The notes under the pieces are model-generated. The model was not told the origin of the DNA. It searched no databases and worked only from the letters and a program-made list of their open reading frames with translations. Below are positions 42,295 through 53,214 of a stretch of 64,000 nucleotides of DNA, piece by piece. The first letter of the stretch is position 1; each line of letters begins with the position of its first letter. The stretch covers positions 302,067 through 366,066 of the forward strand of contig NZ_KQ948425.1 of assembly GCF_001514065.1 (NCBI RefSeq), in the 5' to 3' direction. A program made the translations under genes and the position numbers. Source of the DNA: Streptomyces antibioticus (GTDB lineage Bacteria; Actinomycetota; Actinomycetes; Streptomycetales; Streptomycetaceae).

Positions 42295-42843
42295 CTAGAG
42301 CCCGTAGCGGCGCAGCAGGCGTGGGGCCCGGCACGTGGTCCAGGCGCCGGCCAGACCGATGGCTGCGCCGGCAGCGACGTCGCTCGGGTAGTGGGCGCCG
42401 CTTTGCACACGCTCGAGCGCCACCATGACGGCGGGCACCGCGCACACAGCACTGACGACCGGCCAGGACGGCGCGACAGCGGCGGTGAAGGCCACCGCGG
42501 CGGCCGTGTGCCCGGAGGGAAAGGAGGACGAGTCGGGACGGTCCCTGACCTCGTCGTGGGGAAACCACTCCTCCGGCGGCCGGGACCGGTCGGCCAGCTG
42601 CTTGCACACTCCGTTCGACGCCAGCTGGGCCATGACCAGGGCGGTCAGGCCGGCGGCCGCCGCTCTACGGCCGCGCCACCCGCCCAGCCCTGCCATGGCG
42701 ACGGCCGCGCCGCACCACAGCTTGGTGCTCTCCGCGGCCTCCTCCACGGCCGAGAGCACCTTGCCGGCGGTCTTCGGAATCCGGGCGGCCGTCTGTCGGG
42801 TCAGTGACCGGTCAACGTCGTACACCTCTGCCGGAACCCTCAT
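42295..42843 (-). CDS. PAP2-superfamily phosphatase
   Basis: A 182-residue membrane phosphatase. The three motifs are intact: KQLADRSRP (residues 81-89), PSGH (109-112) and ERVQSGAHYPSD with the R-H-D relay (about 142-155). Hydrophobic segments at about 43-55, 62-76, 113-130 and 133-145. Relatives dephosphorylate phosphatidate or undecaprenyl pyrophosphate. It stands alone, 110 bases from the predicted regulatory sites of the RpiR gene. Confidence 0.9.
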   Translation of the reverse strand: MRVPAEVYDVDRSLTRQTAARIPKTAGKVLSAVEEAAESTKLWCGAAVAMAGLGGWRGRRAAAAGLTALVMAQLASNGVCKQLADRSRPPEEWFPHDEVRDRPDSSSFPSGHTAAAVAFTAAVAPSWPVVSAVCAVPAVMVALERVQSGAHYPSDVAAGAAIGLAGAWTTCRAPRLLRRYGL

Positions 42844-42967
42844 GGCGAGCAGGTATCCCGCACGTCACGGACTTATGCGCAAGGTCATCACTCGATCGGT
42901 CAGGCCTCGTCCGGGCGGCATCGGCCCCCGTAACAGGCGGTACATTGAATCCCAGCATTGGCATCGT

Positions 42968-42976
42968 TGTATCGTC
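42968..42976. promoter_or_regulatory. Candidate RpiR operator upstream of the regulator gene
   Basis: TGTATCGTC, 72 bases before the rpiR-type start, is identical to the sequence at 49309-49317 in the divergent transporter/cyanophycinase promoter region. A looser inverted partner (GTACATTG) lies about 30 bases upstream. The shared 9-mer suggests one regulator acting on both places, including autoregulation. Confidence 0.5.
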
Positions 42977-43048
42977 TGCGGGCAGGTGAGTCGCTGTCCT
43001 CGCGCGTCGGGACGCCGTGACTCGACGAGTTCTGGGAGGACCCACGCC

Positions 43049-43924
43049 ATGAGCGGCACGCTGGCCGACGACATCCGCAGTCGACTGGGCGATCTCAGTC
43101 CCGCCGAGCGCAAGGTCGCCCGCGTGCTGCTCGCGGGATACCCCGCCGCCGTCTTCGAGACGGTGGCGACGATCGCGGAGCGTGCGGCGGTGTCGACCCC
43201 CACCGTGCTGCGCTGCGCCTCGCGGCTCGGATACCGGGGGTTTCCCGATCTCCAGGCCGCGTTGCGTGCGGAGCTCGATGCCCGCAACGCCTCCCCCATC
43301 ACCTTGTACGAGTCGGCGGAACCCGCGCCGGGCAAGGGCACGGGTGACGCCGAGGACGGCGAGGGGCGGTTGCAGCCCCGGCTGGCACTGCTGCAACAGG
43401 CGTTGGCCCAGACGTTCCACGAAGTGTCGCCGCACGAGTTCGAGACGGCGGCGGAGTTTCTGAGCGATGCCCGCCGCCGGGTGCACCTGGCAGGCGGCCG
43501 GTTCACCCACCTGCTGGCGCACTACCTCGGCCTGCATCTGATGCAGGTCCGTGATCAGGTCTCCTTCCTTCCGGACCGGGATGTGGAGCGGACGTCCTAC
43601 CTCACCCAGCTGGCGCGCCGCGACGTCACGGTGATCTTCGACTACCGGCGTTACGAGGAGGACTTGACCGTCATCGCGGAACTCGCCCGCGAGCGGGGCG
43701 GAAAGGTCGTCGTCTTCACCGACCCCTGGCTGTCCCCCGCGTCCGCGCACGCCGACGTCGTCCTCATCAACCACGTGGCCTCCGGTTCGCCCTACGACAG
43801 CCTCACCCCGACGCTCGCCCTGATCGAGACGTTGATCTCCGCGGTGCTCGACCGGCTCGGACCTGACGCGCACCAGCGGATGAAGGCCGGGGAGGACATC
43901 GCCCGGCGTACCGGGCTGCTGTGA
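43049..43924 (+). CDS. MurR/RpiR-family regulator
   Basis: A 291-residue regulator with ATG 43049 behind GGGAGGA. The N-terminal helix-turn-helix is in residues about 1-80 (LSPAERKVARVLLAGYPAAV, ERAAVSTPTVLRCASRLGYR). A SIS domain follows at about 130-270 (RRVHLAGGRFTHLLAHYLG, ARRDVTVIFDYRRYEEDL, GGKVVVFTDPWLSP). SIS domains usually bind phosphosugars, but here the genes served are for peptides or amino acids; some RpiR members in such loci respond to other ligands. It converges with the exported cyanophycinase gene (22-base gap). Confidence 0.92.
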   Translation: MSGTLADDIRSRLGDLSPAERKVARVLLAGYPAAVFETVATIAERAAVSTPTVLRCASRLGYRGFPDLQAALRAELDARNASPITLYESAEPAPGKGTGDAEDGEGRLQPRLALLQQALAQTFHEVSPHEFETAAEFLSDARRRVHLAGGRFTHLLAHYLGLHLMQVRDQVSFLPDRDVERTSYLTQLARRDVTVIFDYRRYEEDLTVIAELARERGGKVVVFTDPWLSPASAHADVVLINHVASGSPYDSLTPTLALIETLISAVLDRLGPDAHQRMKAGEDIARRTGLL

Positions 43925-43945
43925 GCGGGCCGCTTCGAGCGGTGT

Positions 43946-45235
43946 TCAGCGCGGGGCGATGGTGACGCTCAGGCCGACGAGGGTGTCGGCGGTGCTGCCG
44001 TCCACGCTCCACGCGGTGAACGTGTCGGACTTGATGAAGGTGACGGCGAATCGCGGAGCGGCTTCGAACGTCGTGGCGCTCGCGGCGAGTTGGACACGGG
44101 TCTGCGCGAGGGCGCGCGCCGTGCCGCGCAGGGAGTAGGCCTTGCCGTCGGGGTTGGCGGCGGAACAGAAGGCGTCCGTGTTCGCGGGCACGGGTGCGGT
44201 GTTGCCCGGTGCCAGGCGGAGCTTGTCCGCGGCGGGGCGCACCCGCCAGGTGTGAGCGTCGTACCGGTCGTGGTCGGTGAGATAGGTGTAGCGGGCGCCG
44301 CGCAGCGTCCAGCCGGCCGGCGTGGTGGTGGCGCGGGCTTGGCGCAGGTCGAGGACGGCGGCGCCGTTGGGGCCCAGCACGGTGAGCTGCTCGTGCGTGG
44401 TGCCAGGGTGGTCGACGACGACGGCGGTGTTCTCGTCGAGGGCGTAGACACGGTCGTGACCGGTGTCGGCGGCCAGGCGGTAGGCGCGGCCCTCACGTCC
44501 GTAGGCGCCGGTGTGGGTGTCGATGAGGGCCGAGCGCAGGAAGCCGAAACCGCCGCGCGGGAGGTGGCCGAGGCGGGTGGGGTCGTCGAAATAGCCGGGG
44601 GCGCTGCCGTCGCGCAGAGCTTGGTAGGACTCGCCGCCGGTGACCATGTCGGGCCCTGAGGCGATCTGGGCGCCGGCGGAGGATCCGGCGATCACGGCGC
44701 CGTGGCTGAGTTTGGCGCGGATCGCGGCCAGGACCTTCGAGTCGCGTTGCCGGGGGCCGCGCAGCAGGGTCTGGACGTAGCGGTACTGGTCGCCTCCGCC
44801 GAAGAAGAAGCCGGTCATGGAGTCGACCTGGGCGACGACGGCGTCGGAGTCGGCGTTGGCGATGTGGTCGAGGTCGATGGGGATCCACTGGGCGTCGGCC
44901 GCGCCGTGCTTCTTGAACAGCGCGGCGTAATAGGCGCCGTTGCAGGCGGAGTTGCTGCACCGGTCGGGGTCTGCGGCGTCGGGGTCCTGGCTCTCGGGCA
45001 CGGAGGCGGCGGTGATGACCCCGATGCGGGCACCCGACCCACCGGCCCGGTCGATGATCTCGCCGTAGATCTCAGTGTTGGTGTCCTTGAGCGCGCCGCC
45101 GACCAGCACGAGGGAACCGTCTCGGGCAGGACGCTGCTCGCTGGTGGCGTGTGCGACGGGTGCGGTGGCCACGAGGGTGAGGGTGATGCCGGCGGCGAGG
45201 GCCGCGCGGCGGGTCGGGCCGTGGGATACGCGCAT
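43946..45235 (-). CDS. Exported cyanophycinase-like peptidase (S51)
   Basis: A 429-residue protein with a Sec/Tat-like signal peptide (RRAALAAGITLTLVATAPVA, cleavage near AHAT at about 31). The catalytic nucleophile is Ser186 in GSSAGAQ, preceded by TGFFFGGGDQYRYVQTL, the pocket motif of cyanophycinases and peptidase E. The first 270 residues are the S51 fold; the last about 120 residues form an extra beta-rich domain. Cyanophycinases cut multi-L-arginyl-poly-aspartate to beta-Asp-Arg dipeptides. Export means an external polymer is the target. It is downstream of the M20 gene in the same direction, 92 bases apart. Confidence 0.85.
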   Translation of the reverse strand: MRVSHGPTRRAALAAGITLTLVATAPVAHATSEQRPARDGSLVLVGGALKDTNTEIYGEIIDRAGGSGARIGVITAASVPESQDPDAADPDRCSNSACNGAYYAALFKKHGAADAQWIPIDLDHIANADSDAVVAQVDSMTGFFFGGGDQYRYVQTLLRGPRQRDSKVLAAIRAKLSHGAVIAGSSAGAQIASGPDMVTGGESYQALRDGSAPGYFDDPTRLGHLPRGGFGFLRSALIDTHTGAYGREGRAYRLAADTGHDRVYALDENTAVVVDHPGTTHEQLTVLGPNGAAVLDLRQARATTTPAGWTLRGARYTYLTDHDRYDAHTWRVRPAADKLRLAPGNTAPVPANTDAFCSAANPDGKAYSLRGTARALAQTRVQLAASATTFEAAPRFAVTFIKSDTFTAWSVDGSTADTLVGLSVTIAPR

Positions 45236-45327
45236 GGGCTCTCCAAGGAGTCGGGAAAAAAGGGTGGGTGGGAAGCGGCCGGGAAGGTGGGAAGGAGGCT
45301 TTCTGCGCCTGTGCCGGCTGAGCCGGG

Positions 45328-46548
45328 TCAGAGACAGGCCCCGGAGCCATGGCCGAGCGCCGCCACGAGCGCGGCCAGGACGGCGACGCGCTGCGGCACG
45401 CTGGTGGTGTCGAGCCATTCCTGTGGGGTGTGGTCGGCTCCGCCGACGGGGCCGAGGCCGTCCAGGGTGGCCACCCCCGTTCCGGCGATCAGGTTGGCGT
45501 CGCCGACTCCGCCAGTAGTGGTTGCGGCGAAGGTCCCACCGACGGCTCGTGCGGCCTGTCGAGCCAGGTCGAGCATGTGGCGTGAGGCGTCGGTGACCTC
45601 CATGGGCGGGCAGAGGTCGAGTTGTTCGACGGTGATGCTGGTGCCGGGGACGGCGGGCCGGTCGGCGACCTCCCGGATGGCCCGCTCCGCGTGCTGGACG
45701 TCGGCGGTGGTGGCCGCCCGGACCTCCACCCGCAGTTCGGCGTCGGCGCAGACGATGTTGGCCCGGCTGCCTGCTCTGATGGTTCCGACGTTGACGGTGA
45801 CGTCTTCCCAGCGTCCGTTGAGGGCTTGCAGGTCGACGACGAGGTGGGCGGCCGTGAGAGCGGCGTTGGCGCCGCGCTCGGGTTCGATGCCTGCGTGGGC
45901 GGCGCGGCCGGTGACGGTGATGTGGAAGTCGGCCACGCCCTTGCGGCCGATGACGAGGTCACCGTTCTCACGGGCGCACTCCAGGCCGAGGGCGTGGTGC
46001 ATGCCGCGGGCGGTCGCTTCGATGAGCGGCCGACTGGCGGGTGAGCCGATCTCCTCGTCCGGGGTGGCGAGCAGGACCAGTTCGTCGTACGCCGTCCACC
46101 CGTGCGCGTCCAGGATCTCCAGGGCCGTCAGTCCGGCGAGCAGGCCGCCCTTGTCGTCGCTGACGCCGGGGCCATGGGCGAGGTGGCCGCGCAGGGTGAA
46201 CGGCCGTGCCAGCGCGGTGCCTTGGTCGAAGACGGTGTCCATGTGGCCGGCGAGCAGGATTCTGCGGCCGCCTTCCGTGGCGGGCAGGGTGCCCTTTTTG
46301 CGCGCGACCAGGGCGTCACCGGTCCGGACACGGCCGCCGGCGGCGAGGCGGACGCGTTCGACGGTGAAGCCGAGCAGGCGCAGGCGCCGCTGCATCCAGT
46401 CGGCGACCCGGTTGACGCCGTCGGCGTCGTAGGAGCCGGAGTCGATGGAGACCAGCTCGCGCAGGTCGTCCAGGTAACGGGAGTGGCGGGAGCGGGCCAG
46501 GTCGAGCAGGTCCGCGGCGAGTTCCTGCCGGCGGGTCGGCGCGCTCAC
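45328..46548 (-). CDS. M20-family metallopeptidase
   Basis: A 406-residue peptidase from GTG 46548, which overlaps the ABC ATPase stop (GTGA). Metal and catalytic motifs: [21 protein letters not shown] (bridging Asp), [12 protein letters not shown] (catalytic Glu pair) and [10 protein letters not shown] near the end. A dimerisation domain with [16 protein letters not shown] lies between. The protein has no signal peptide and so works in the cytoplasm, after uptake. Closest in pattern to glutamate carboxypeptidase/ArgE-type enzymes. In this context it may cleave the imported Asp-Arg dipeptide, which is an inference. Confidence 0.9.
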
Positions 46549-47309
46549 AGGACCTTGGACAGGAAGGCACGGGTGCGGTCCTGCTCCGGGTCGACGAGAA
46601 CGCGGCGGGGATCGCCGGCTTCGACGACGACGCCGTCGTCCATGAACACGGCCGTGTCGCCGACTTCCCGGGCGAAGCCGATCTCGTGGGTGACGACGAC
46701 CATGGTCATGCCGTCGGCGGCCAGTTGGCGCATCACGTCCAGTACGTCGCCGACGAGTTCGGGGTCGAGAGCGGAGGTCGGCTCGTCGAAGAGCATCAGC
46801 TTGGGCTGCATGGCCAGGGCGCGGGCGATGGCGACGCGCTGCTGCTGCCCGCCGGAGAGTTCCGCGGGGTAATGATGGCCCCGGTCTGCCAGCCCGACCT
46901 GCGCGAGCAACTGCTGCGCCCGTTCGTGGGCCTCGTTCCTCGGGACGGCACCGACCTTGACGGGGGCTTCCATGACGTTCTGCAGGGCCGTCATGTGGGG
47001 GAAGAGGTTGAAGCGCTGGAAGACCATGCCGATGTCGCGGCGGCGCTGGGCGACTTCTCGTTCGCGCAGTTCGTGCAGCTTGGTGCCGTGCTGGCGGTAG
47101 CCGACGAGTTCGCCGTCGACGGTGAGCCTGCCGCCGTCGACCTTCTCCAGGTGGTTGATGCAGCGCAGGAAGGTCGACTTGCCCGAGCCGGAGGGGCCCA
47201 GCAGGCAGCAGACCTGTCCGCGTTCGACGGTGAGGTCGATGCCCTTGAGCACCTCCAGTCCGCCGAAGTGCTTGCGGACCCCTTCGGCCCGCACCATGGC
47301 CGCGGTCAT
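46545..47309 (-). CDS. Polar amino-acid ABC transporter ATPase
   Basis: A 254-residue ATPase of the GlnQ/HisP class: Walker [10 protein letters not shown] (about residues 38-46), signature LSGGQQQR, Walker [13 protein letters not shown] and the switch VVVTHE. The Q-loop reads [14 protein letters not shown]. It overlaps the permease gene by 4 bases and the M20 gene by 4 bases. With the permease and binding protein it completes one importer for a basic or acidic amino acid or small peptide. Confidence 0.95.
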
Positions 47310-48268
47310 CGGCCGTCCTCCTTGTTCTTCTTGCCGACGAGCCGCGCGGTGCCGCCGAACATCCGCTGCAGGGGCGAGGCGTGTGCGCCGCGCGCGGTGC
47401 CGCGTCCGTAGCGGCGCTCCAGCCACGCCTGGGGGACGCTGAGCACGCTGACCAGAGCCAGGTACCACAGGCTCGCCACCACGAGCATGGGGATGACCTG
47501 GTAGTTCTGGGCGTAGACGTCCTGGATGTTGGACATGAGGTCATGCGCGGAGATGACGGAGACGAGCGCGGTCATCTTGAGCATGTTGATGGTCTCGTTG
47601 CCCATCGGCGGGATGATGACCCGCATCGCCTGGGGCAGGACGATCCGGCGCATGGTCAGCGCGGGCCGCATGCCGAGCGAGTGGGCTGCCTCGGTCTGGC
47701 CGGGGTCGACGGACTGGATGCCGGCGCGGACGATCTCGGAGGCGTAGGCCGCCTCGTTCAGTCCGAGCGCGAGAAGCGCGGCGACGGCAGGGGTGAGCAA
47801 GGTGTTGGTCTCGGTCTGGAAGAACGTGATGTCGGTGAAGGGGACACCGATCTTGACGAACTTGTACAGGGCGCCGGCGTATCCCCAGAAAATGATCTGG
47901 ACGAGCAGCGGAGTGCCGCGGAATACCCAGACGAACGCGGTGGCGATGCCGTACAGCACCGGGCTGGAGGACAACCGCATGACGGCGAGCAGGGTGCCCA
48001 GTCCCAGGCCCAGGGCCATCGCCGCGGCGGTCAGCCACAGCGTGGTGCCCAGCCCGTCGAAGATGAGGTCCGCGAAGAGGTAGTCGCCGACGACGTCCCA
48101 GTGCAGGTTGTCGTTCTTGGCGAGCGAGCCGATGAGCCCGACGAGCGCGAGCACGCTGATGACCGCGGCGGTCCAGCGCCCGTAGTTGCGCACCGGGACC
48201 ACGTCGAGCTCCGGTGCGCGGGGACCGCCGGCGGGCGGCGCGCCCAGGGCGTCCTTGGTGACGGTCAT
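47306..48268 (-). CDS. Polar amino-acid ABC transporter permease
   Basis: A 320-residue permease with an N-terminal helix at about 35-52 and a HisM/GlnP-type core: [40 protein letters not shown], and the EAA loop region [20 protein letters not shown]. An extra 30-residue basic tail follows. Only one permease gene is present, so it probably forms a homodimer. It starts two bases after the binding-protein stop. Confidence 0.95.
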
Positions 48269-48270
48269 GG

Positions 48271-49218
48271 TTAGTCCACCGCCGCGTTCTTGGTGGCCTC
48301 CCGCACGGCGATCGAGGCCACGCCGTAGCTGTCGTAGATCTTGGTGACGGTGCCGTCGTCGATCAGGGCCTGCAGCGCCTTCTGGATGGCGTCGGTGAGC
48401 CCGGGCAGCTGCTTGCTGACGGCGATGCCGTTGGGTGAGGCGTGGTAACCGCCGGGCGCCTTGGGGTCCTCGACGAGGTCGAAGACCTTGCCGTCGTCGG
48501 CGGTCTTGGCGACCCAGCCGGCGGCGGGCTTGGTCAGCACCTGTGCGACGACCTTGCCGGAACGCAGGGCCAGCTGGGCGTCGGAGTCCTTGGGGAAGGT
48601 CTGAATGTCGATCTTCGCCTGGCCCGCGGCGGAACAGTCGCCCTGGTGCTCCTTGAGCAGGTCGAGCTGGTTGGTGGCGGCCTGCACGGCGACCTTCCGC
48701 CCGCACAGGGCGTCGAGGTCGGTGATCTTCTCGGGGTTGCCGTCGGCGACGAGGATGCCCGACCCGGACTGGGAGTAGTCGACGAAGTCGACGACCTGCT
48801 GGCGCTCCTTGTTGTCGGTGATGGCCGACATCGCGGCGTCGAACTTGCCGGCCTGGATGGCCGGGACGATCCCGTCGAACTTCTGCGGGGTGAACGCGAA
48901 GGTCACCCCGAGTTTGCCGCCCAGCGCCTGGCCGAGGTCGTGGTCGAGGCCGGTCAGCTCGCTCTCCCCCTCCTTCACGAACATCTCGAAGGGCGGGTAG
49001 GGCACGTCGGTGGCCACCCGGACCTTGCCGGCCTTCTTGATCTGGTCCGGGAGCAGGTCGTGCAGGGCCTGGTCCTTGGTGATCTCCACGCCGGCGACCG
49101 TGACCTTCCCGCTCGCGGCGGGCGCCGTGTCGTCGCCGTCTTGGCAGGCGGTGAGCGTGGTGAGGGCCAGGGCTGCCGTGGCGGCGAGCGCCGTACGCCG
49201 GGCGAGACGAGCATTCAT
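48271..49218 (-). CDS. Amino-acid/dipeptide-binding lipoprotein
   Basis: A 315-residue solute-binding protein with lipobox LTACQ (Cys25). The family 3 fold shows KVRVATDVPYPPFEMFVKEG, LTGLDHDLGQALGGKLGVTF, FDGIVPAIQAGKFDAAMSAI and TNQLDLL. It is similar to arginine/glutamine-type binding proteins but its ligand cannot be read directly. It is the first gene of the operon SBP-permease-ATPase-M20 and probably -cyanophycinase. The upstream region carries a perfect inverted repeat. Confidence 0.93.
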   Translation of the reverse strand: MNARLARRTALAATAALALTTLTACQDGDDTAPAASGKVTVAGVEITKDQALHDLLPDQIKKAGKVRVATDVPYPPFEMFVKEGESELTGLDHDLGQALGGKLGVTFAFTPQKFDGIVPAIQAGKFDAAMSAITDNKERQQVVDFVDYSQSGSGILVADGNPEKITDLDALCGRKVAVQAATNQLDLLKEHQGDCSAAGQAKIDIQTFPKDSDAQLALRSGKVVAQVLTKPAAGWVAKTADDGKVFDLVEDPKAPGGYHASPNGIAVSKQLPGLTDAIQKALQALIDDGTVTKIYDSYGVASIAVREATKNAAVD

Positions 49219-49285
49219 CGTGGTGGAACCTCTCAAGATCTCCGCCGACGGACCCCTGCCGTCGGCAACACAGCAGGAAGTTACA

Positions 49286-49314
49286 GATACATCGATTGCT
49301 TGGCTAGATGTATC
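49286..49314. promoter_or_regulatory. Inverted-repeat operator in the divergent cyanophycin-locus promoter
   Basis: GATACATC and GATGTATC form perfect 8-base arms separated by 13 bases. The right arm extends as TGTATCGTC, the same 9-mer as upstream of the rpiR-type gene. Lying 70-95 bases upstream of the transporter operon start, it suits a dimeric HTH regulator such as RpiR. Confidence 0.65.
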
Positions 49315-49423
49315 GTCCGTTACGTTGAGGTAAAGCGGATCGAAGGCCCCGCCCAGGCACACAAGGACGGGCCATCTGCCTTCTTGAGAGGTCCGGCGAG
49401 CCCACACTGCGCGACAGGACGGC

Positions 49424-49458
49424 AATACATCTTTCGCACTATCGGATCTACTTGTATC
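49424..49458. promoter_or_regulatory. Second ATACA/TGTAT repeat near the exported S51 gene
   Basis: AATACATC at 49424-49431 and TTGTATC at 49452-49458 repeat the half-sites of the operator at 49286, with a longer 20-base spacer. It lies 78 bases before the GTG of the second cyanophycinase-like gene, so both divergent units may be controlled by one protein. The bases between 49219 and 49535 hold no gene. Confidence 0.45.
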
Positions 49459-49535
49459 TTCCGCTACTAACCCGATTGGCCGACTGTCGTCGCCGTCGCC
49501 CGGACACGCGCCTACTGCCAACCTCAGGAGTCCTT

Positions 49536-50963
49536 GTGACGCACCGTCATGCCCGCAAAGCCGGCCGCACCGTCGTGGCCCTGTGCACCCTGGCCCTGGC
49601 GATCACTGCCGCGCAGCCCGCCCACGCGGCAGCCGACCGGATCAGACTCGGCAGCGCCACCGACGCCAGCCGCACCTCCTGGAACGGCCCCGCTTTCACC
49701 ATGAACGGCGCCGGAGCCGTGGTGGCCGCCTCCATGACCCGGGCCATCGACGAGATCCGCGGGGGCACCGGAAGTCTCGACGTCGTCGTGCTGGCCGGAT
49801 CCGCTCCCACCTCGGGCAGCAGGACACCCGAGTGCGACACCGTCATGACCCTCGCCGGCGTCAACTCCTGCACCACCTGGACTCTCACCACCGCCGCCGA
49901 CGGCAACAACAGTCAGGTCAACACCGACATCCGCAACGCCGAGTTCGTCTACTTCGCCGGCGGTGACCAGTGCCGCTACGCCGCCTGGAAGGGCACCGCG
50001 CTGGAAGCGTCCGTGGAGTCGGTCGTGGCCAAGGGAGGCGGATCAGGAGGCGGAAGCGCCGGCCACCACATCAACAGCCCCGTCGTCTACGACGCCTGCA
50101 ACGGCAGCGTGACCAGCAGCGAGGCGCTCGCCAACCCCTACGATCGTGCCGTCACCTTCACCACCGGCATGTTCCAGTGGGCCGACTACGGCAGTGTCAT
50201 CAACGACTCCCACTTCGTCACCCGCGACCGGATGGGCCGCACCATGGCGTTCCTGGCGCGGGCGGTCAAGGACGGTCTCACCGCCGGCGGCGCGGCATGG
50301 GGCGTGGGTGTCGAGGAGGGCGGCGGCTCCCTGTTCATCGACCGCAACGGCCTGGGCACCCAGTACGGCAAGGACGCCTACGTCGTCCTGGCGGACCACC
50401 AGCCCGAGCAGGCCGTTGACCGCAAGCCGCTGACGTACTCCGGCTTCAAGATCTGGCGGCTGACGCCGGGCACCACTTTCGACTTCCGACACCGCCCCAC
50501 CTGCGGCTACTACCTGCGCAGCGTCACCGGAGGCGTACCCGACGCCAACCTCTACAGCGGCACGCCCGTCACCGACTGCGGCCCGAGCGGCGGTACCGCG
50601 CTGATCGAGAGCGAGCCGAACGACACCCGCGATACTGCGGACGACGCCACCGCGCTCCCCTCCACCGCGACGATCACCGGGTCCATGAAGTCCACCAGTG
50701 ACCGCGACTACTTCAAGATCTCTCTCACCTCGGGGTCGACCGCGTCACTCAACTGCGCCGTTCCGACCGCCTACGACGCGGACCTGTACGTGCTCGACTC
50801 CACCGGCAGCACCCTGCAACGCTCCGTCAACGACGGCGCGGGCACCGACGAGGCCCTCACCTTCACCCGCACCACCGCCGGCCCGGCCACCTACTACGTC
50901 GAGGTCGAGGCCTACAGCGGATCCGGCACCGCCCCTTACACCTGCGCCCTCAGCACGACCTGA
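49536..50963 (+). CDS. Secreted cyanophycinase-like protein with pre-peptidase C-terminal domain
   Basis: A 475-residue exported protein from GTG 49536 (AGGAG upstream, 5-base spacing). Signal peptide: KAGRTVVALCTLALAITAAQ with cleavage after HAA. The S51-like core has NAEFVYFAGGDQCRYAAW and the nucleophile motif GGGSAGHH (Ser174), different from GSSAGA of the other copy. Residues about 385-475 are a PPC domain (EPNDTRDTADDATALP, DRDYFKISLTSGS), typical of secreted hydrolases and used for substrate or wall contact. The two S51 proteins are too different to be recent duplicates. Confidence 0.82.
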   Translation: MTHRHARKAGRTVVALCTLALAITAAQPAHAAADRIRLGSATDASRTSWNGPAFTMNGAGAVVAASMTRAIDEIRGGTGSLDVVVLAGSAPTSGSRTPECDTVMTLAGVNSCTTWTLTTAADGNNSQVNTDIRNAEFVYFAGGDQCRYAAWKGTALEASVESVVAKGGGSGGGSAGHHINSPVVYDACNGSVTSSEALANPYDRAVTFTTGMFQWADYGSVINDSHFVTRDRMGRTMAFLARAVKDGLTAGGAAWGVGVEEGGGSLFIDRNGLGTQYGKDAYVVLADHQPEQAVDRKPLTYSGFKIWRLTPGTTFDFRHRPTCGYYLRSVTGGVPDANLYSGTPVTDCGPSGGTALIESEPNDTRDTADDATALPSTATITGSMKSTSDRDYFKISLTSGSTASLNCAVPTAYDADLYVLDSTGSTLQRSVNDGAGTDEALTFTRTTAGPATYYVEVEAYSGSGTAPYTCALSTT

Positions 50964-51168
50964 CCCAGCGTCATAAACCGCGCAAATCCCTCTCTTCAGC
51001 GGCCAGGCATTGCGTCTCGCCGAAAACCTTCGGGCCCTGCCTGGTCGATTCCCGCCATGGCCCGGCCTCACGGCCCGGCGCAGCCCTACGCTCACTTCCG
51101 GCCCCGCCCGCGCGCGGAGCGGTACGGCGGATGCCTGCCCCGACACGAAGAAAGGACATGCCGATTTC

Positions 51169-51465
51169 ATGAGCAAGGCGGCGGGCAGGAGAAGGGCCGA
51201 CCGGCTCAGGAATCTGTACAGGCGCTACCTCGCGTGGCGCGCACCGTTCCCCCGGTGGGCGCGCATTCTGTACGACATCACGATGACCGTCATCGCCGCA
51301 GCGACGGCATACGTCGCTGTAGGCGCCCTGTGCGGAATGGTCCTCGTCCTGCTGCCCCTGCTCGGGTTCCTCGGCCTCGCAAAAAGCAAGGATCACGACG
51401 ACGGCATCGACTGGAGCGACGACCGGATGGGTGGTCAGCCCAGAAATCCGGGCCCGAAGCTCTGA
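51169..51465 (+). CDS. Small membrane protein of unknown function
   Basis: A 98-residue protein with a basic N terminus (SKAAGRRRADRLRNLYRRY), a pair of hydrophobic helices (YDITMTVIAAATAYVAVGAL and MVLVLLPLLGFLGLA) and a short acidic tail. GAAAGGA lies 13 bases upstream, a rather long spacing. I recognise no family. Confidence 0.55.
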   Translation: MSKAAGRRRADRLRNLYRRYLAWRAPFPRWARILYDITMTVIAAATAYVAVGALCGMVLVLLPLLGFLGLAKSKDHDDGIDWSDDRMGGQPRNPGPKL

Positions 51466-51877: not shown

Positions 51878-52462
51878 GTGAAAGAAGCCGTGCATATCGG
51901 CAGAAATCCATCGTCGAAACCGGATCTGGAGGAGTTGGTGAGCCGCGTGGCCTTGGGGGACGAGGATGCGTTCACCGGCGTCTATGACGCCGTGGCCGGC
52001 TCCGTCCTGGGGGTCGCACGTGCCGTGCTGCGTGATCAGGCGCAGTCGGAGGAGGTGGCCCAAGAGGTGCTGGTGGAGGTGTGGCGCACCGCCCCTCGCT
52101 TCCGGCCCGAGCGTGGGACGGCGGTCAACTGGATCCTCACCCTCGCGCACCGCCGCGCGGTGGACCGGGTCCGCTCCGTGGAGGCCGCCGCCGCCCGCGA
52201 CCACCAGGCCGCGCTGCTGGAGCGGACGCCCGAGTTCGACGAGGTGACCGAGCAGGTCGAAGCCAGGCTGGAACGGGAACAGGTACGACGGTGCCTGCGC
52301 ACGCTGACCGAGATCCAGCGTCAGGCCGTCACTCTCGCCTACTACCGCGGGCTGACCTACAGCCAGGTGGCCGAGGCACTGACGCTTCCGCTGGGCACCG
52401 CGAAGACCCGGCTGCGGGACGGGCTCATCCGCCTGCGCGACTGCCTGGGGGTGACGGTATGA
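51878..52462 (+). CDS. sigK: ECF sigma factor, SigK type
   Basis: A 194-residue sigma factor starting at GTG 51878. Region 2 includes DEDAFTGVYDAVAGSVLGVA and QEVLVEVWRTAPRF, with the SigK-type loop GTAVNWILTLAHRRAVDRVR. Region 4 has EIQRQAVTLAYYRGLTYSQV and LPLGTAKTRLRDGLIRLRD. In mycobacteria SigK controls fasciclin lipoproteins MPB70/83 and is held by RskA in the membrane; here an RskA-type gene follows by ATGA overlap. Confidence 0.92.
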   Translation: MKEAVHIGRNPSSKPDLEELVSRVALGDEDAFTGVYDAVAGSVLGVARAVLRDQAQSEEVAQEVLVEVWRTAPRFRPERGTAVNWILTLAHRRAVDRVRSVEAAAARDHQAALLERTPEFDEVTEQVEARLEREQVRRCLRTLTEIQRQAVTLAYYRGLTYSQVAEALTLPLGTAKTRLRDGLIRLRDCLGVTV

Positions 52463-53214
52463 CCGGCATCGTCGATCTGCACCGTCTGACCGGGGCCTAC
52501 GCCCTGCATGCCCTGTCCGAGGACGAACTGCGCACGTTCGAGCGTCACCTGGCGGGCTGCGAACCGTGCACGCAGGAGGCCGCCGAGCTGTCGGCGACCG
52601 CGGCCCGGCTGGGACTGGCCGCCACCGTGACACCGCCGGCGGCCATGCGCGAGCAGGTCCTGCACTGCGTCTCGTCCGTCCGGCAGGAGGCGCCGGGCGG
52701 ACGGACGGCCGGCCGTGCCGGGCGCGCCTCGTCGCGTACCCGGCTGCTGTCCCGGTGGGCCCTGGCCGCCTGCCTCGCCGCAGCCGCCGCGCTCGGGGGC
52801 ACCACGGTCTGGCAGCATCAGCGGGCCGAGGACGCCCTGAGTCAGGCGCACCGCGCGCAGCGCGGGACCGAGGAGATCGCCGCCGTACTGGCCGCGCCGG
52901 ACGCCAGGACACGCGCCGCCATGCTGGGCGGCGGCGCCACCGGCACGGTCGTGGTCTCCCGGGCCCGGGACAAGGCCGTGTTCGTCGTGTCGGGGATGGC
53001 CCGGCCCGCCGAGGGCAAGGTCTATCAGCTGTGGTTCAACGACGACGGCACCATGCGCTCCGCCGGCCTGATGGATCCCGGCCGCACGGACCAGGCCGTG
53101 CTCCTGCAAGGCGGAGTCGACGGGGCTTCAGGCGTGGGGGTCACCGTCGAACCGGCCGGCGGTTCGACGGAGCCGACCTCCGCACCGGTCGCTCTGCTGG
53201 GTTTCCCGGCCTGA
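52459..53214 (+). CDS. rskA: Anti-sigma-K factor (RskA-like)
   Basis: A 251-residue anti-sigma factor. The N-terminal zinc-type motif HLAGCEPC (His30, Cys34, Cys37) lies in the helical anti-sigma domain. One transmembrane helix is at about residues 97-115 (RWALAACLAAAAALGGTTVW). The outer RskA domain has VVVSRARDKAVFVVSGMARP, KVYQLWFNDDG and SAGLMDPG. The gene overlaps the sigma gene, so both are coexpressed. Confidence 0.93.
   Translation: MTGIVDLHRLTGAYALHALSEDELRTFERHLAGCEPCTQEAAELSATAARLGLAATVTPPAAMREQVLHCVSSVRQEAPGGRTAGRAGRASSRTRLLSRWALAACLAAAAALGGTTVWQHQRAEDALSQAHRAQRGTEEIAAVLAAPDARTRAAMLGGGATGTVVVSRARDKAVFVVSGMARPAEGKVYQLWFNDDGTMRSAGLMDPGRTDQAVLLQGGVDGASGVGVTVEPAGGSTEPTSAPVALLGFPA

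Follow-up and report, generated by a model that had tools for sequence, protein, structure and literature searches.

Candidate cyanophycin-foraging gene island with an M20 peptidase, an importer and an RpiR regulator in Streptomyces antibioticus

In a 64,000-nt stretch of the Streptomyces antibioticus genome (contig NZ_KQ948425.1, positions 302,067 to 366,066 of the forward strand; hereafter the window) we characterized a gene island at window positions 43049-50963. It encodes two exported S51 proteins (S51A and S51B), a family-3 ATP-binding cassette (ABC) importer, a cytoplasmic M20 peptidase and an RpiR regulator. The gene set is conserved far beyond chance, in two actinomycete families. It is probably a dedicated cyanophycin-foraging island, with digestion of the polymer outside the cell, import of the dipeptide, M20 cleavage inside and control by RpiR. 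Cyanophycin is a polymer in which other bacteria store nitrogen.

In the proposed mechanism exported S51B (perhaps S51A too) would cut cyanophycin of other organisms into beta-Asp-Arg dipeptides; the importer, made of lipoprotein, permease and ATPase, would take them up, and the cytoplasmic M20 metallopeptidase would split them into Asp and Arg. The RpiR protein would bind the palindrome TGTAAY-N4-RTTACA and control the operon and S51B from their shared divergent promoter region, and also itself. The identities of the substrate and of both ligands (that of the binding protein and that of RpiR), the enzyme activities and the role of RpiR as palindrome binder are what we infer from sequence.

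Layout and conservation of the island

From left to right the island consists of the RpiR gene, a leftward operon (binding protein-permease-ATPase-M20-S51A) and the divergent gene of S51B. Its features are as follows:

42929..42944, + strand: predicted RpiR operator before rpiR (autoregulation), TGTAAYN4RTTACA with 2 mismatches
43049..43924, + strand: RpiR-family regulator with HTH_6 and SIS domains (PF01418, 51.2 bits; PF01380, 65.2 bits; both above cut-off), converging on the operon
43946..45235, - strand: S51A, exported cyanophycinase-like S51 hydrolase with a C-terminal extension and Tyr at the Arg178 position
45328..46548, - strand: cytoplasmic M20 metallopeptidase, proposed beta-Asp-Arg hydrolase (PF01546, 101.5 bits; PF07687, 79.3 bits; island clade at 100/100; site changes)
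46545..47309, - strand: ABC importer ATPase of the polar amino acid type (PF00005, 125.3 bits; closest NCBIfam model GlnQ, below cut-off)
47306..48268, - strand: ABC importer permease, single gene (PF00528, 73.1 bits; TIGR01726, 72.8 bits, above cut-off)
48271..49218, - strand: lipoprotein binding protein of family 3, proposed beta-Asp-Arg receptor (PF00497, 108.5 bits; lipobox LTAC by reading; Thr-Lys site)
49278..49312, - strand: composite element TACATCT-N20-TGTAWNTT before the binding-protein operon
49309..49324, + strand: predicted RpiR operator before the binding-protein operon, TGTAAYN4RTTACA with 2 mismatches
49426..49460, + strand: composite element TACATCT-N20-TGTAWNTT before S51B
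49536..50963, + strand: S51B, exported divergent S51 cyanophycinase-like hydrolase with a PPC C-terminal domain (PF04151, 30.6 bits; TIGR02069 below cut-off; profile match to 7uqv; pocket residues)

All genes named in the original prediction were found in place, with the catalytic serines it had given, Ser186 of S51A (G-S-S-A-G) and Ser174 of S51B (G-G-S-A-G). The importer-M20 operon is as tightly coupled as had been claimed: the permease and ATPase genes, as well as the ATPase and M20 genes, overlap by 4 bases, 2 bases separate the binding-protein and permease genes, and rpiR (start codon placed from orthologs) converges on one end. The gap from M20 to S51A is 92 bases. The S51 pair had been described as flanking the operon; both genes are present, but S51A is the last gene of the same-strand operon and only S51B is divergent. 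Export signals were recognized by sequence reading in S51A, S51B and the binding protein, and none in the M20 protein.

The original prediction had proposed clustering in related genomes as a test, and clustering was found in both families. A pattern-based scan for the M20 gene over 84,980 species, with one genome per species, gave 31 loci, 30 of them of island type; the other (L044) was dropped, its M20 being 30% identical and unrelated. Among the 30 loci, S51B was present in 25, S51A in 27, rpiR in 28 and each of the three importer genes in 29, several of the gaps being contig ends; 29 have one S51 gene or both next to the M20 gene. In an even genus sample of 150 genomes (window genome included) the island M20 was found in 10; 8 of these have a clear S51A, and 7 of the 8 have S51B as well, with no carrier of either outside this nesting (Fisher p from 8.6e-12 to 4.1e-10); one genome with a weak match (G124, E=4.9e-4) was excluded from the S51A carriers. 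At least one S51 gene accompanies the island M20 in 8 of these 10 genomes. Island M20 proteins are 66-100% identical, other M20 matches of the sample at most 44%. The window genome is 10.1 Mb in size, and its island is nearest to islands of Streptomyces.

In the second family (f37) close S51B proteins occur in 16 of 150 genomes, and all 16 carry the seven genes within 7 to 9.2 kb; as these genomes were picked by S51B, the frequency of M20 without S51B is not readable there. Six different arrangements of order and orientation were seen among the 16 loci. That the genes remain neighbours despite such rearrangement makes a joint function very likely. Only four of the 394 genomes in a class sample had a close S51B; there were 15 further matches at 20 to 45 bits, and the six of these loci that we examined had no other island gene except weak ATPase matches.

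Three loci (L063, L064 and L045; genomes G103, G137 and Kitasatospora MAA4) have importer, M20 and rpiR genes without S51 genes. In the M20 tree all three group within the island clade, L045 at an uncertain position; because the f37 branch of this clade has S51 genes, loss is likelier than primitive absence. The S51-less operons are thus likely to be losses that gave rise to dipeptide scavengers.

Some S51 genes were not read as single intact frames. The S51B of L032, L035 and L043 was dropped, having no single open frame in the extraction, and that of G042 and G481 was matched with one stop read through. The S51A of G057 lies in two frames (L066:10830-12063; broken gene or sequencing error); it was used as a fragment in some residue comparisons and excluded from alignments A2 and A5.

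Proteins of the proposed pathway

The catalytic pocket of cyanophycinases CphE and CphB, tied to cyanophycin cleavage in the available part of PMC3235067, is made of Gln101, Asp172, Arg178, Arg180 and Arg183, with the Ser nucleophile and His. S51B keeps Ser, His and all five pocket residues in 28/28 Streptomycetaceae and 16/16 f37 rows. The column of the triad Glu, set by a weak alignment, has Glu in the window protein and in 24 of the 28 and 14 of the 16 rows. A profile search of PDB sequences with S51B detected cyanophycinase 7uqv (E=1.3e-5), and the nearest folds of S51A are cyanophycinases, not peptidase E. A PHROGs search with the S51 proteins gave no match. In three loci a paralogue that carries the same Arg triad stands in the S51B slot.

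The S51B slot of the L038 island holds an S51A paralogue, and a decayed scrap of S51B is seen at L038:13689-13892. Other S51 matches of the window genome were set aside: L001 and L002, above the Pfam cut-off, have no export signal by reading, and L004 is below the cut-off.

The M20 protein has the Pfam M20 and dimerisation domains and the His/Asp/Glu metal-ligand columns, which are identical in 33 island rows and 17 genus paralogues. Its best solved relative is carboxypeptidase G2 (E=1.7e-53); against the glutamate carboxypeptidase model PRK06133 it scores 293 bits, below the cut-off of 349. We built a tree from the M20 proteins of the window, 16 of the 38 Streptomycetaceae loci, all 16 f37 loci and 17 paralogues chosen from 17 regions; the 33 island rows of both families make one side of a 100/100 branch. 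Arg stands at column 313 in 16 of the 17 paralogues; all 33 island rows have Cys, Thr or Ala there. Every island row also has Arg193 and Asn195, which none of the 17 paralogues shares. Column 313 aligns with an Arg of carboxypeptidase G2 that we take to bind the glutamate side chain of the substrate; the changes would fit a shift to substrates other than those with C-terminal Glu. The N-succinyl substrates of DapE-type M20 enzymes are similar to beta-Asp-Arg, and by this chemistry cleavage of the dipeptide by an M20 enzyme is plausible.

No other enzyme for the last step was detected in the window genome: the best match to IadA had 30.9 bits (cut-off 331), and IaaA and PF04952 had no match. 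Each of the three models matched in control genomes, PF04952 in 1 of 14 only; since PF04952 also covers only a 76-position part of its proteins, the absence of a CphZ-like enzyme is less sure. The M20 enzyme is then the natural candidate, and we propose that it is a cytoplasmic beta-Asp-Arg hydrolase.

The binding protein departs from solved homologs at one site. Those aligned (AncCDT-1 in two entries, AncQR, GlnH 8hnj and 4h5f) have Asp, presumably the anchor of the alpha-amino group, at a column that is Thr in the island protein, with Lys next to it. Thr-Lys is found in 37 of the 38 main binding proteins of Streptomycetaceae (the exception, Asp-Lys, belongs to the S51-less locus L045) and Thr-Lys/Arg in 15 of the 16 of f37. 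A ligand with a blocked amino group and an extra carboxylate, for example beta-Asp-Arg, would fit such a site. A second family-3 binding protein, 52-57% identical and with the ordinary Asp-Glu at this site, is encoded within or next to the island in five loci (L029:12810-13760, L032:12863-13810, L070:12827-13780, L038:2823-3797 and L040:2818-3792); these proteins perhaps bind free arginine.

Cyanophycin synthetase had no match at E 1e-40 in the 12 Streptomycetaceae island genomes searched, the window genome among them; for the window genome this is consistent with foraging and not with consumption of a store made by the cell itself. Matches to cphA above cut-off were found in 3 of 28 island genomes, all of f37; one genome (G623) has two partial synthetase matches side by side. 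The island would thus mostly serve polymer made by others.

Predicted regulation

Two conserved elements were found upstream of island genes. The composite element TACATCT-N20-TGTAWNTT, with fixed spacing, is present before the gene of the main binding protein in 33 of 38 loci and before S51B in 22 of 28; it is found upstream of none of the five second binding-protein genes and none of 41 rpiR genes. In 13 whole genomes the exact pattern had 17 matches (in 11 genomes), whose coordinates place all of them in island promoters; no match was found with the pattern reversed.

The palindrome TGTAAYN4RTTACA was searched with up to two mismatches in 250 bases upstream of genes. It precedes the binding-protein gene in 37/38 Streptomycetaceae and 16/16 f37 loci (53/54; 0.40 and 0.05 expected from 20 shuffles) and was found before none of 109 permease or M20 genes. 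Before S51A it occurs in 1 of 37 Streptomycetaceae and 10 of 16 f37 loci; in f37 it also precedes S51B in 15 of 16 loci and rpiR in 1 of 16. Of 22 loci with an rpiR gene convergent on S51A, 21 have the palindrome before rpiR; none of the 19 loci that have rpiR behind the operon or lack S51A has it there. The 64-kb window has only two matches, both in the island; with 0.27 expected, and two found in 5 of 100 shuffles, this is weak on its own, so the case for the palindrome rests on its conservation. A sigma-70 scan of positions 42700-51200 gave no promoter-like site.

TGTAA-type half sites are used in the RpiR family (HexR), so the island RpiR is the likely binder of the palindrome. Its HTH_6 and SIS domains place it in the RpiR/MurR group. 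The SIS domain carries GGRF(T/S) and FD(Y/F/H)RRYE in 41 f1 and 16 f37 rows (one row has L for F) and lacks what we take to be the usual phosphosugar-binding serine motifs. Four loci (L017, L019, L036 and L041) have tandem rpiR pairs downstream of S51A, one gene co-directional and one convergent; the palindrome is on the convergent gene only in three of them and on neither gene in L036.

Next to the island, at window positions 51878-53214, are open reading frames resembling, by reading, an extracytoplasmic function (ECF) sigma factor and its anti-sigma partner.

Alternatives and known systems

The order of events in the original prediction (cutting outside, import of the dipeptide, hydrolysis inside) is supported by clustering in two families, by the pocket of S51B, by the composite element shared by S51B and the operon and by the lack of detected IadA, IaaA, PF04952 and synthetase proteins. 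Several observations weigh against the cyanophycin reading. The label 'cyanophycinase-type' holds at the family level only, since both S51 proteins are below the cut-off of the cyanophycinase equivalog TIGR02069 (S51A 87.9 and S51B 45.1 bits; cut-off 126.6) and Pfam S51 matches S51A alone; S51A paralogues of L038 and L037 score 121.4 and 111.5 bits. A structure model of S51B from 23 rows reached a predicted local distance difference test score (pLDDT) of only 50, and its triad Glu column has Asp (3), Gln (2) or Arg (1) in the remaining rows. S51A keeps the other pocket residues, but its Arg178 column is Tyr in the window protein and Arg in 0 of 33 readable Streptomycetaceae rows (28 Tyr, 5 others); it is Arg in 8 of 16 f37 rows. 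The eight other f37 rows (L127-L133 and L138) have lost the triad Glu as well, and two further f37 rows have Gln in its place. By these alignments the two S51 proteins are not equal, S51A having lost one pocket arginine; half of the pair may act otherwise or be inactive, and the eight f37 proteins may have no activity or serve as binding partners. In the binding protein, the 'ATDVPY' motif has an Asp that presumably faces the guanidinium; this residue is Asp in 43/43 Streptomycetaceae and Asn in 16/16 f37 rows, and a strict arginine reading is weaker for it. G057 and G337 have no match to the composite element. In 23 of 28 cases the Streptomycetaceae S51B palindrome is the binding-protein site viewed from the other side and so is not independent evidence. 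The choice of f37 genomes by S51B counts here as well.

Low S51 scores and the altered S51A pocket would also be expected if the module foraged for some other polymer or damage product with isopeptide or beta-peptide links, such as lysine-rich cyanophycin, poly-aspartate or beta-aspartyl peptides in general, with cyanophycin at most a side substrate; poly(aspartic acid) hydrolase 7ljh is among the M20 matches (E=9e-8). We consider this rather unlikely, given that S51B retains the residues tied to cyanophycin cleavage (PMC3235067, available part) and that the paralogue in the S51B slot of three loci has the same Arg triad. The closeness of M20 to carboxypeptidase G2 and the three loci with operon and rpiR genes alone could suggest that the importer and M20 handle N-blocked amino acids or dipeptides in general, with the S51 enzymes as loosely linked add-ons. 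Such a view appears improbable in the light of the S51 genes beside M20 (29/30 M20-picked loci, 8/10 genus-sample genomes), the likelier loss of S51 genes (with the reservation on L045) and the composite element common to S51B and the operon. As S51 peptidases conferring resistance to microcin C are described (PMC9239234, available part), the S51 proteins might also be detoxifying or immunity peptidases, e.g. against peptide-nucleotide antibiotics, rather than nutrient enzymes; both look exported by reading and are grouped with importer and regulator, and the nearest folds of S51A are not peptidase E, which makes this very improbable.

The cyanophycin reading can be compared with known systems. 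In Pseudomonas the aot operon combines an importer with a specific beta-Asp-Arg hydrolase, CphZ/AotO, where CphZ is of the AstE/AspA type; to our knowledge it has no extracellular cyanophycinase pair. The island resembles it in joining an importer to a proposed dipeptide hydrolase; a difference is that PF04952, which covers only part of its proteins, has no match in the window genome. CphZ is named in the available part of PMC12661447. With extracellular CphE of Pseudomonas (PMC3235067, available part) the island S51 proteins share the export signal, the Gln/Asp/Arg pocket and the Ser-His-Glu triad (its Glu column in S51B is variable and set by a weak alignment), as judged with no direct alignment to CphE; on the same terms S51A has Thr at Thr223 of CphE and no equivalent of Arg228. 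S51B differs from CphE by its distance from the family model and its PPC domain.

The available part of PMC10206079 describes scavenging loci in which cyanophycinase genes lie with iadA or iaaA and with transporters, and it cites the cyanophycin utilization locus of Ben Hania et al.; in such clusters cyanophycinase genes, a dipeptide-splitting enzyme and a transporter come together in genomes without cphA1. The window genome likewise has cyanophycinase-type genes and a transporter without cphA1, but with no IadA above cut-off and no IaaA it has no locus of the iadA/iaaA type. From those clusters as described there, the island differs by its M20 in place of IadA/IaaA, its two unlike S51 types, its family-3 ABC importer, its RpiR regulator with its own predicted operator and its actinomycete hosts. 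The original prediction was aware of no described system in which cyanophycinases go with an M20 peptidase, a single-permease importer and RpiR control. No M20 peptidase tied to cyanophycin and no account of this cluster was found in the open-licence literature searched, which does not establish absence from print; the general arrangement of scavenging loci is known.

A broader reading, on which we are evenly divided, is that the island is a self-contained cyanophycin-foraging system of actinomycetes in which M20 would represent an unrecognised class of beta-Asp-Arg hydrolases, a cyanophycinase would work with a divergent S51 partner of altered specificity, the RpiR sensor would have moved from phosphosugars to a dipeptide or amino acid, and S51-less operons would scavenge dipeptides of their neighbours.

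According to the available part of PMC10206079, many genomes with cyanophycin genes have no identifiable isoaspartyl dipeptidase, some such enzymes perhaps having been missed, and consortia with the two breakdown steps split between members are mentioned. As a fixed part of the cyanophycinase-type clusters in two actinomycete families, M20 offers a concrete candidate for the missing dipeptidase. If the cyanophycin reading is true, the island would offer enzymes for converting cyanophycin to dipeptides and amino acids, soil actinomycetes would join the consumers of cyanophycin, and one genus would provide a clear case of polymer cutters beside dipeptide scavengers.

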